Of a stretch of 64,000 nt of DNA, positions 2,900 to 15,506 are shown piece by piece. This stretch comes from Candidatus Tepidiaquacellales bacterium OLB4/UTCHB1. Its GTDB lineage: Bacteria; Bacteroidota; Ignavibacteria; Tepidaquicellales; Tepidaquicellaceae. Within the stretch, counting starts at the first letter, position 1, and each line of letters opens with the position of its first letter. The translations under genes and the position numbers were made by a program. The stretch lies in NCBI GenBank assembly GCA_002050165.1, contig MWSW01000016.1, forward strand, positions 1 to 64,000, in the 5' to 3' direction. The notes beneath the pieces are model-generated. The model saw only the letters and a list, made by a program, of their open reading frames with translations, had not been told where the DNA came from and searched no databases.

Positions 2900-3071
2900 G
2901 TCTAAATTGCAAGGGGTTTTTTCGGGCTTGTATTATTCGAAATTTTACTCCGGTTGTGATTTATTGTAACTTGTACCCCCCCACATTTAAACAATGCAAA
3001 AATTTATACCTATTGAATTTTTCCTCAAATGAAGTACTCATTATTTTCAATTGCTGATCTGAGTTCATAAC

Positions 3072-3102
3072 AAAAAAGCGGAGCAACTGCTCCGCTTTTT
3101 TT
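3072..3102 (-). terminator. Rho-independent terminator of the 3133-3975 gene
   Basis: A perfect 14-bp stem joins AAAAAAGCGGAGCA to its complement across a two-base loop, flanked by A and T runs. It lies about 30 bp downstream of the minus-strand stop at 3133. Because it is symmetrical with A on one side and T on the other, it could also act on plus-strand transcription. No plus-strand gene ends here. Confidence 0.88.
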
Positions 3103-3132
3103 CAATAGAAAAAACGTTGGAAGTTTATTTTA

Positions 3133-3975
3133 TCACTTCAGGAGTACCATCCGCTTAACGCTCACAAATTCGCCGGCTTCTATGCGGTAGTAATACACAC
3201 CACTCGAAAGGTGCGATGCGTCAAATCCAACTTCGTAACTGCCGGGCTTCAGAACTTCATTTGTCAGAACCGATACTTCCTTCCCGGTCATATCGTAAAC
3301 TGAAAGCCTGACCTTACCCGCTTTCATAATATCAAATCTTATGTTAGTTACAGGGTTGAACGGGTTGGGATAGTTTTGGGAGAGATCATAATCATTAACT
3401 ATAGTATTATTGTTTGGAACTGAAACTGTAGTGATGTCTACCGTAAAAATGGGAGCAAAATTCCAGTTATCGCCATCAGTATTGAAGTTAAGGTCCACTG
3501 CGTTCCCGTTTGCAAAAATAGTATCCGTTATATTTCCAACAGGCGGGGCTTTATACACAAATTCAATTATTACAGTATCGCTTCCATTAGCAGGCAACGG
3601 TTGTGTCTGAGTTATTTCAATTGAGGTGTCTGGCCGGTTAGAATAAATAAACGGTAAAACTTTGGAAATTGTATCGCCGGGAATTATTGCCATTTCGCCT
3701 GTTCCCGCGGCGACATTCCAGCCTGTTGCGATCAAACCTGATTTAACTATGAATAATTTAAAAATCGCTGATGAATCTGCCATGACCTGAGACGGGCCCT
3801 GTATAAATACCGTTGTTGAATCAGACGGATCAAGATTATGACAAATGCACCCCGGTTCAAATGGGTTTTTCTTAGTCCAGCCGACAATTCCATGTGATGA
3901 TGCGCTAAGGTTGAAATAAAGTAAACCGGAAAATATTGTAATACAAAGAACGAAAATTAGTTTTTTAAATTTCAT
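3133..3975 (-). CDS. Secreted CxCH-motif protein (choice-of-anchor V-like) with T9SS tail
   Basis: The protein has 280 residues. A signal peptide covers about 1-25 and is followed by GIVGWTKKNPFEPGCICH, in which Cys-x-Cys-His precedes a beta-sandwich region to about residue 185. Then comes a T9SS type A tail (196-280) with SQNYPNPFNPVTNI and a KRMVLLK end. The order of glycine-rich segment, Cys/His motif and Ig-like sandwich resembles choice-of-anchor V proteins of Bacteroidota, which often carry CxxCH. This copy has one residue fewer between the cysteines, so it should not be assumed to bind heme c. It is a single gene with its own terminator at 3072-3102. Function is unknown. Confidence 0.85.
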   Translation of the reverse strand: MKFKKLIFVLCITIFSGLLYFNLSASSHGIVGWTKKNPFEPGCICHNLDPSDSTTVFIQGPSQVMADSSAIFKLFIVKSGLIATGWNVAAGTGEMAIIPGDTISKVLPFIYSNRPDTSIEITQTQPLPANGSDTVIIEFVYKAPPVGNITDTIFANGNAVDLNFNTDGDNWNFAPIFTVDITTVSVPNNNTIVNDYDLSQNYPNPFNPVTNIRFDIMKAGKVRLSVYDMTGKEVSVLTNEVLKPGSYEVGFDASHLSSGVYYYRIEAGEFVSVKRMVLLK

Positions 3976-4261
3976 AATAGGAAAATTATTTGATTTGAAA
4001 TAAATAAGAAATTTTTATTTTCAATTCCAATTCAAAAACGTTCAAAATGCGCAATAAAAATATCCGACATATCAAGTGAGTTTGTAATGATAAAGATGAA
4101 ATGTTTGTGTTGAATATTCTTGATTTCAGAAATTCCCGCTTTCAATAAATCTATTAAACTTTCTTCTTTTGATTGAATCGTAATGTAATTATTTAATTTC
4201 AATTTGGTTTTTACAATCGCAGTGAAAACTTTAACGTTTGTGAAATAAACATCACGGGTAT

Positions 4262-5035
4262 TTAATATCTTTTCACATGAACTGAACTTGCCTGAGACCG
4301 CGGCATCAATACAATTTCTGCAATTACCGTATTACTATTACGGCTTGCAGCGAAATATACTGCCTCAGCAACATCATTTCCGTTTAGCGCTTTTAAACCT
4401 TTATAAACGTTTGATGCTTTCTGTTTATTACCCCTGAATCTAACCAAACTAAATTCCGTTTCTACAAGTCCGGGGTCAATGCTTGTAACCTTAATGTTTG
4501 AACCGAGAAGATCAATTCGCATACCTTTTGTTAACGCTTTCAAAGCGAATTTGGATGCGCAATAAACATTCCCCCCCTGGTAAACTTCATGGCCTGCGGT
4601 AGAACCAATGTTGATAATATGTGCCATGGATTGTTTCATAAGCAACGGTAAAACACTTTTAGTTACATTCAGGACGCCTTTCAAATTTGTATCTATCATT
4701 TCATCCCAATCCCTGTATTTCCCATCCTGAATCTTATCCAGTCCTCTGGAAAGACCGGCGTTATTTATAAGAATGCTGATATCCTTCCACTCAGCAGGTA
4801 ATCCAAGGAATACGTCAGCAATTACTTTTCTTTTTCTGACATCCGCAACTACATTCAACGTTTTAGTCCTGAACTTTGAGTTCAATTCATCCGCGAGCGA
4901 TTCAATCCTACCTTTCCGCCTCGCCAGGAGGATCAACTTACAGCCCGCTTTGGCAAACCTCTTTGCACAAGCTAAACCGATTCCACTCGAAGCGCCTGTG
5001 ATTAAAACAATTTTACCTTTTATTGAATTTGACAT
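4262..5035 (-). CDS. SDR family NAD(P)-dependent oxidoreductase
   Basis: This 257-residue short-chain dehydrogenase resembles the YdfG-like (3-hydroxy acid dehydrogenase) group. The Rossmann nucleotide-binding motif TGASSGIG is at 13-20, NNAG at 91-94, the catalytic Ser at about 145 and the Tyr158-x-x-x-Lys162 pair in YCASK. ARRKGR after the second strand favours NADP over NAD. The C-terminal EIVLMPRSQAS is typical of the group. It is cytoplasmic, and the natural substrate cannot be read from the sequence. It is divergent from the pyruvate kinase gene, with about 70 bp between starts, and there is no strong ribosome-binding site. Confidence 0.9.
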   Translation of the reverse strand: MSNSIKGKIVLITGASSGIGLACAKRFAKAGCKLILLARRKGRIESLADELNSKFRTKTLNVVADVRKRKVIADVFLGLPAEWKDISILINNAGLSRGLDKIQDGKYRDWDEMIDTNLKGVLNVTKSVLPLLMKQSMAHIINIGSTAGHEVYQGGNVYCASKFALKALTKGMRIDLLGSNIKVTSIDPGLVETEFSLVRFRGNKQKASNVYKGLKALNGNDVAEAVYFAASRNSNTVIAEIVLMPRSQASSVHVKRY

Positions 5036-14029: not shown

Positions 14030-14824
14030 TCAAGATCCGGATTTAATCGTTTCAGATTTATTCAAACCACTATCTATTCCTATGTGGCATAATGCAAAAT
14101 CGTATTTAACCGGATCATCCGGATCAAACTCCTTTAATTTCTCGGTCAGCATTAATGAAAATTTCAAATCACAACTCTTCCTTGATACCAATCCAAGTTG
14201 GCTGGATATCCTGTGAACATGCACATCAACCGGCATTAAAAGCCGACTTGCACCGACTTCCTGCCATATACCGAAATCAATGTCATCTTTTCGTACCATC
14301 CACCTTAAAAAGAGATTTAACCTTTTGCATGCAGACCCTGAAGCAGGTTCAGGGATAAGGTGATTAAAGGATCTCCCGTGTTCTTTTCCATTTTTTAGTT
14401 CTGTTACAAAATTTTGTAAAGCGCTCAAAATATTTTCATCATACGGTTTAATATATTTAATAAACGCATTCCGCAATGAGCAATTTTTTCTTAAGGATTT
14501 TTTCAACGCATCGAAAAGCAATCCTAGTTCCCTTTCTGTTTGGAAACGATAACATAGGTTGTCTAAATATTTTTTGTCTTTTGATTTGGAATAATTCAGA
14601 GTAAATTCGTAGACTCTGTTTCCAATTTTGTTTAGCAAACGAGTTATAAAATAATTAATCTGATCAACAGACCCATAAGAATAAACCGATGTAATGAATC
14701 CGGCAACCTCAATATCCAGTTCATTGCTGAATCTGTATAAGTTCCAAATCGGATCAGTTGACGAATACTTCCTGTGGTAGTGTTCGTAATTTTTATTTAA
14801 TATTTTTTTTAATTTATAATCCAT
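14030..14824 (-). CDS. TIGR02757 family protein (DUF2400)
   Basis: The 264-residue protein matches a conserved family of unknown function. It has a segment with DPIWNLYRFSNELDIEVAGF and YSYGSVDQI near the N-terminus, FLRWMVRKDDIDFGIW in the second half, and a C-terminal DPDDPVKYDFALCHIGI. In this family the fold is thought to be related to HhH-type DNA glycosylases, which I recall but cannot verify here. No catalytic residue can be assigned. Only four bases separate its ATG from the TTG start of the divergent gene at 14829. Confidence 0.85.
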   Translation of the reverse strand: MDYKLKKILNKNYEHYHRKYSSTDPIWNLYRFSNELDIEVAGFITSVYSYGSVDQINYFITRLLNKIGNRVYEFTLNYSKSKDKKYLDNLCYRFQTERELGLLFDALKKSLRKNCSLRNAFIKYIKPYDENILSALQNFVTELKNGKEHGRSFNHLIPEPASGSACKRLNLFLRWMVRKDDIDFGIWQEVGASRLLMPVDVHVHRISSQLGLVSRKSCDLKFSLMLTEKLKEFDPDDPVKYDFALCHIGIDSGLNKSETIKSGS

Positions 14825-14828
14825 TCAA

Positions 14829-15506
14829 TTGGACATTGCCATATACGGTGACAATACTGCCCTTGTAGAAGAATTGGAGAACCTACTGAGTGAAGCACAT
14901 CAGGTAAGTTTCGTTCTGGACAAAAATGAAACCGCATTGATTTTTGAAACTACCATTTTTGACAAAGAATATAAAATTTCAAATCTTGACATGATAAGCA
15001 ATATGGCTTTGCCCAACGCGGTAATCATTTCTAATTCAAACTGCATAAAACTTCTCGATCAGGCAAGGTACATTAAAAAACCCGAGAGATTGATCGGCAT
15101 GTCATTATTTCCAACTTTCTCACTCAACGACGGACTTGAGTTTTCAATTACAAATTTTTCAAACGTACAGAGCATACAACTTGTTGAAGATGCGTTCAGT
15201 CAAGTTAAGAAGGAGAAATTCTGGGTTCAGGACAAACCCGGGATGATTAATCTCAGGTTAATTTCTCTCATAATTAATGAAGCATACCTCGTATTGCAGG
15301 AGAAAACTTCCAGTAGAGAGGATATTGATACCGCAATGAAACTTGGAACGAATTATCCTTTCGGACCGATTGAGTGGAGTGAGAAAATCGGCATAGAAAA
15401 TATTTACGCAATTTTATACGCGATGAACGAGGAGTTTGCCGAAGACAGATATAGGATTACCCCTCTTTTAAAAGAAAAATTTCTCGAGAAGTTAATTTCA
15501 ACTTAA
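14829..15506 (+). CDS. 3-hydroxyacyl-CoA dehydrogenase-like protein, probably inactive
   Basis: This 225-residue protein has two parts. Residues 1-110 look like a shortened Rossmann domain, and residues 125-225 match the C-terminal 3HCDH helical domain (DKPGMINLRLISL, LNEA-like INEAYLVL, EDIDTAMKLG, PFGPIEWSEKIG). The glycine-rich NAD loop is absent (IAIYGDNTALVE). The catalytic His of the usual HFFNP motif is replaced: the aligned segment reads GMSLFPTF (90-97). It is therefore probably not a normal dehydrogenase. The start must be TTG at 14829, since an in-frame stop lies at 14817. It overlaps the stop of the convergent barrel gene by four bases. Confidence 0.8.
   Translation: MDIAIYGDNTALVEELENLLSEAHQVSFVLDKNETALIFETTIFDKEYKISNLDMISNMALPNAVIISNSNCIKLLDQARYIKKPERLIGMSLFPTFSLNDGLEFSITNFSNVQSIQLVEDAFSQVKKEKFWVQDKPGMINLRLISLIINEAYLVLQEKTSSREDIDTAMKLGTNYPFGPIEWSEKIGIENIYAILYAMNEEFAEDRYRITPLLKEKFLEKLIST

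Follow-up and report, generated by a model that had tools for sequence, protein, structure and literature searches.

What is a dehydrogenase retained for once its cofactor loop and catalytic residues have apparently gone? This question is raised by an open reading frame (ORF) on a 64,000-nucleotide stretch (the window) of contig MWSW01000016.1 from Candidatus Tepidiaquacellales bacterium OLB4/UTCHB1 (Table 1). The ORF carries EDIDTAMKLG and PFGPIEWSEKIG, and its residues 138–220 matched the 3-hydroxyacyl-CoA dehydrogenase (3HCDH) family PF00725 of Pfam (E 2.1e-16; 60.6 bits, curated cut-off 22.1). The N-terminal family PF02737 (3HCDH_N) scored 19.5 bits, short of the required 22, and its match begins no earlier than profile position 75, indicating that the part bearing the NAD loop is missing. 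Orthologues with 45–52% identity occur in 12 of the 28 other genomes of the window's family; since these 12 orthologues have an ATG at or adjoining the matching position, the TTG start is plausible.

Table 1 Positions in the window of the gene, its domains and motif columns, and its divergent neighbor
Feature	Positions	Strand	Basis or remark
TIGR02757/DUF2400, divergent neighbor	14030..14824	-	Start codons 4 bases apart; context, outside the system
Stand-alone counterpart of the PaaH C-terminal half (C-half): pseudo-3HCDH, 225 aa, TTG start	14829..15506	+	ORF, Pfam, PDB sequence match, PaaH model, tree
Degenerate Rossmann domain, residues 1-133	14829..15227	+	Folded in the predicted model; poorly conserved, mean majority frequency 0.35
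GxGxxG NAD loop position, here GDNTAL (G7-D-N-T-A-L)	14847..14864	+	Alignment
Catalytic HFFNP segment position, here SLFPT from S92; His lost	15102..15116	+	Alignment
Glu104, column of the catalytic-dyad Glu	15138..15140	+	Alignment
3HCDH C-terminal (dimerisation-type) domain, residues 138-220	15240..15488	+	Pfam; the conserved part
Leu142 (L142), column of the catalytic Asn	15252..15254	+	Alignment
Trp183, diagnostic of the C-half class	15375..15377	+	53/53 A3 rows; 92/92 short frames; 0/67 active rows

The initial annotation had proposed a pseudoenzyme related to 3-hydroxyacyl-CoA dehydrogenase, and its motif readings (a clear 3HCDH C-terminal domain, no Gly loop, no His in the HFFNP segment) proved correct. 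Whether relatives share the loss was surveyed in 92 frames of at least 200 aa that have the window protein as best match, two of 94 short frames having been excluded beforehand as shorter than 200 aa. None of the 92 retains all three loop glycines, and the catalytic His, the Asn-Pro following it, the Ser and the Asn are each kept in 0/92; such shared losses reflect neither sequencing error nor chance. The columns of the dyad Glu and of Trp183 hold Glu and Trp, respectively, in all 92 (in human HADH numbering, we take the catalytic Asn to be Asn208 and the dyad Glu to be Glu170). The protein thus has the PF00725 domain of an active 3HCDH enzyme but neither the GxGxxG loop nor the complete catalytic His-Glu/Ser/Asn set. 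Glu104 is invariant across the dead class despite the loss of its His partner.

Trp183 separates the two kinds of sequence sharply: across 172 frames, Trp is present in 102 of the 105 without the His motif versus 0 of the 67 with it. The three exceptions are two N-terminal-half proteins whose motif is altered or misaligned (L154 and L158) and a distant Aminobacter protein (L191). Conservation is concentrated in the C-terminal part, with a mean majority frequency of 0.62 for residues 134–225 versus 0.35 for residues 1–133; 22 positions of the former are at least 90% conserved across 53 diverse proteins, W183 and E104 being present in all. No internal stop was found among the 13 family frames of the short protein.

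Structure prediction, which the initial annotation had suggested as a check, returned a confident model with both domains (mean pLDDT 96.5, pTM 0.91) that resembles active dehydrogenases over its length: it aligned with 9jhy_B over 220 residues (Z 23.2, rmsd 2.2) and with 1m76_A over 224 (Z 23.1, rmsd 2.7). By fold, active dehydrogenases outrank E. coli PaaH (3mog), which ranked 39 in Foldseek and lay outside the 50 matches listed by VIA-align. The fold is thus retained in the model, and the chemistry motifs have gone. Together, sequence and predicted fold bear out the proposed pseudoenzyme: the gene product is apparently a dead, conserved copy of a dehydrogenase.

A lead to its function came from PaaH, the NAD-dependent 3-hydroxyadipyl-CoA dehydrogenase of phenylacetate breakdown. 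According to PMC4498308, E. coli PaaH "appears to be a fusion of two" genes, and its second Rossmann domain has no catalytic residues and no NAD cleft. E. coli PaaH (3mog) is also the best PDB sequence match of the window protein, with the best stretch in the second 3HCDH domain. Single-protein comparisons are otherwise neutral and do not clearly favor PaaH: NCBIfam models gave the ORF 109.7 bits (PRK05808, Hbd), 105.3 (PRK08268) and 99.3 (TIGR02279), and our profile A1 gave 105.8 bits to the Hbd-type enzyme of the same genome (L002) versus 104.7 to the E. coli PaaH C-half. A1 fails to separate C-halves from Hbd below about 140 bits; its replacement, A3, draws on 53 of 60 references, L082 having been dropped for a broken N-terminus and L095, L101, L107, L118, L154 and L172 to limit the size of the set.

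A tree of the C-terminal domains (101 rows, 86 columns; a Nonomuraea record read in a wrong frame was left out) decides the kinship; its bootstrap had yet to converge, and long branches occur among the PaaH C-halves. One clade (support 99/98; 69 rows) unites 60 of 61 pseudo-labelled rows with 9/9 PaaH C-halves. Another (100/100) joins 15 partner rows with 9/9 PaaH N-halves. It also takes in two N-halves under other labels: L139 from Tumebacillus (hbd) and L154 (pseudo), the latter being the 61st pseudo row. The window protein therefore clusters with the second domains of PaaH, apart from N-halves and Hbd, which identifies it as a PaaH C-terminal half by homology, not by function. As a one-chain PaaH it falls far short, scoring 86.8 or 99.3 bits against the TIGR02279 equivalog cut-off of 669.4.

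The complementary half is present in the same genome. With the window protein as query and E up to 10, three 3HCDH proteins were retrieved: the ORF itself, the Hbd-type enzyme, whose gene adjoins a thiolase gene, and L003 (G000:C3:64369-65232). L003 has intact GTGTMG, HFFNP and Asn motifs and groups with PaaH N-halves, lying beside that of Saprospira in the C-terminal-domain tree (95/81). It scores higher with the fused-type model PRK08268 than with PRK05808 (395.8 > 309.1 bits), whereas the Hbd-type enzyme shows the reverse (324.0 < 452.8). TIGR02279 matched complementary parts of the two proteins, model positions 6–290 in L003 (330.8 bits) and 400–495 in the window ORF (86.8 bits); its third match in the genome was Hbd (5–288, 258.8 bits). 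A PaaH N-half with all its motifs in place is thus present in the window genome, unlinked to the window ORF. The surroundings of L003 (genes for a Mur-ligase domain protein, FUR, HAD, AcpS and polyphosphate kinase) are housekeeping and uninformative as a functional clue. Homologues of paaA, paaC and paaD lie together on contig C8 (L318:8852-11514), apart from both PaaH halves.

Within the window's family (29 genomes), the short protein occurs in 13 genomes and the partner N-half in 15, including all 13 that have the short protein. PaaA/PaaC (phenylacetyl-CoA epoxidase) occur in 14 of the 29, and the short protein was found in 13/14 genomes with them versus 0/15 without. G018 (97% complete, 430 contigs) has the partner and PaaA with no short protein found, and G017 (67% complete) yielded only a partner fragment.

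The pattern was then followed across 395 genomes of the phylum, using cut-offs (C-half, 178.5 bits; N-half, 316 bits) that were set after inspection of the lists, just above the highest Hbd-looking scores; absences are soft because scoring covered no more than 6 or 7 candidates in each genome. A clear N-half (at least 316 bits) was found in 124 genomes, unfused in 47 (frame <365 aa) and of fused length in 77 (at least 375 aa). A strict C-half accompanied 38/47 unfused versus 0/77 fused-length N-halves (Fisher 1e-23, with counts uncorrected for kinship). On inspection, each of the remaining nine unfused genomes, G119 among them, has a weaker short frame (211–287 aa) with the Trp present and no HFxNP. 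A lenient recheck of all candidates in 16 of the 77 fused genomes revealed a C-half-type domain within the fused frame in 16/16 and a separate short frame in 1/16 (G194). In G194 (L288 and L320, contig C3), the fused-length PaaH lies in a paa operon and a separate short C-half is present as well; this short frame keeps the Trp but has lost the otherwise nearly invariant KLGTNYP stretch, while two genomes of the same genus (G100 and G414) have the split form. This would be consistent with a relaxation of constraint once a fused gene had taken over, perhaps recently.

Of the 46 genomes with a strict C-half, eight have no N-half above 316 bits, six of them with a candidate at 299–311 bits, a range in which Hbd also scores. 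PaaA/PaaC accompany 45/47 unfused and 76/77 fused-length N-halves and are lacking in 5/46 strict C-half genomes. Viewed from the epoxidase, the 132 PaaA/PaaC-positive genomes comprise 45 with the split form, 75 fused with no C-half seen, one fused with a C-half, five with a C-half and no clear N-half, and six with neither, five of which have frames at 300–304 bits, a range common to Hbd.

Gene order joins the halves in several lineages. In 7 of 80 named loci (L074, L082, L085, L097, L100, L135 and L139) the N-half gene immediately precedes the C-half gene in the same orientation; in two of these, L135 and L139, the C-half start as assigned falls before the N-half frame ends. This N-half-first order was also observed in 10/55 phylum genomes with a C-half, with 20–219 bases between the matches. 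Enoyl-CoA hydratase genes lie upstream, not always adjacent, in the four annotated adjacent-pair loci (L074, L085, L100 and L139). On Aminobacter aminovorans plasmid pAA02 (L191:1-833), two neighboring genes (882 and 642 bases) carry 3HCDH family annotations, and the short protein has no Trp; this is perhaps an independent split pair. A PaaH-like gene annotated in two pieces (2938–4434) lies nearby.

We propose that the product of the window gene is very probably the PaaH C-terminal half in free-standing form, acting as the conserved pseudoenzyme subunit of an enzyme split in two. The two halves would be two genes in the window genome, with L003 as the active half; the window protein has lost the NAD and catalytic motifs and kept the C-terminal helical domain, which in the 3HCDH fold is the dimerising domain. 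Most likely this domain packs against its counterpart in the active half, so that the two form a heterodimer (or higher heteromer) with a single functional site, arranged as inside fused PaaH. A dimer-like contact is the presumed working part because the C-terminal domain is the conserved part and is kept by Saprospira-type PaaH with no second Rossmann domain. We infer the complex, its substrate and a need for the dead subunit in activity, stability or specificity; the dead half may stabilise the active one, complete its site or set its specificity. A further-reaching version is possible but doubtful: the split enzyme would be an obligate heteromer in which the invariant Trp183/Glu104 surface of the dead subunit sets specificity for dicarboxylic substrates, and the second Rossmann domain would have been whittled stepwise from full (window) to a reduced form (E. 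coli) and finally to none (Saprospira type).

Several other explanations compete with a split PaaH. The initial annotation had favored a non-oxidoreductase role such as CoA-thioester binding or regulation. That the protein alone should oxidise nothing stands; it is better read as a non-catalytic subunit of an active dehydrogenase, because it is related to the second half of the oxidoreductase PaaH and is distributed in step with the unfused N-half and phenylacetyl-CoA epoxidase. A protein acting alone as CoA-ester binder or regulator, with PaaH kinship as mere history, would suit a gene that adjoins DUF2400 and is unlinked to paaACD and the N-half, and the predicted model retains a folded Rossmann part. 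A free regulator, however, need not track unfused versus fused PaaH, nor adjoin the N-half gene in several lineages, and we regard such a role as improbable. Partnership with another dehydrogenase, for example the Hbd-type L002, could draw on the dimerising domain common to both and on the presence of Hbd-type proteins in the same genomes; since these proteins also occur in family genomes without the short protein, its presence does not follow Hbd, and the adjacent gene, where there is one, belongs to the N-half class, which makes an Hbd partner very improbable. That the protein is a relic in decay, left behind by a once homodimeric dehydrogenase, might be read from the lost motifs and the poorly conserved Rossmann half, but the 22 conserved C-terminal positions, the invariant Trp and Glu, the uninterrupted family frames and the co-distribution with PaaA/PaaC render decay hardly credible.

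The pairing could also be real while the enzyme serves wider beta-oxidation and not specifically 3-hydroxyadipyl-CoA. The five C-half genomes lacking PaaA/PaaC point that way, as do the four annotated adjacent pairs downstream of enoyl-CoA hydratase genes, an enzyme used by both the phenylacetate and the beta-oxidation pathways. The near-constant company of PaaA/PaaC with N-halves of either form argues against it, and we consider a general role unlikely.

Among known systems, the dehydrogenase part of FadB/FadJ/MFE1 combines a single NAD domain with two C-terminal domains in a dimer-like design, one active and one non-catalytic, like the proposed split PaaH; it differs in being part of a single multifunctional chain with a hydratase, and its models score the window ORF below the Hbd and PaaH models. 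Monofunctional 3HCDH homodimers (Hbd, human HADH) share the fold over both domains, whereas the Hbd class keeps the catalytic and NAD motifs in 27/37 rows, the other 10 being pseudo proteins that score best to Hbd. E. coli PaaH (3MOG; TIGR02279 / PRK08268) contains the same two halves by tree and model positions, with an active dehydrogenase half first and a second half devoid of catalytic residues, and PaaH has the Trp in its second C-terminal domain, the fused proteins of Sulfitobacter and Prescottella excepted. In contrast to the window genome, E. coli encodes it as one chain, and its second Rossmann domain is reduced (residues 305–383; PMC4498308) compared with about 133 aa in the window half. 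The short Bacteroidota PaaH of about 385–420 aa, exemplified by Saprospira grandis WP_270100841.1 from a plasmid paa operon (L192:3931-5088), likewise combines an N-half with a Trp-type second C-terminal domain; unlike the window pair it is a single chain, and at 385 aa the Saprospira protein is too short to accommodate a second Rossmann domain.

A degenerate half inside PaaH is already known. A two-gene PaaH whose dead half is a protein in its own right was not found in the open-licence literature searched, and the portions available of PMC4498308, PMC9493321, PMC13186573, PMC2653477 and PMC9007349 do not describe a split PaaH. The proposal would assign a function to a short, widely distributed protein, recognised by general family models only as a 3HCDH domain, and would supply the second part of PaaH where pathway reconstruction would find a lone, ordinary-looking dehydrogenase. 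The natural series of two genes, fused with a reduced domain, and fused with none offers a way to ask why a dehydrogenase retains a dead partner.

The immediate neighborhood of the window gene follows a separate pattern. Among the 58 named loci with an assigned C-half start, a divergent DUF2400 gene occurs in 20, about -32 to +45 bases from that start (tblastn ends), and miaA lies downstream in 17. In the window's own lineage the C-half occupies the slot between DUF2400 and miaA. This slot is conserved and offers no functional clue to the window gene.
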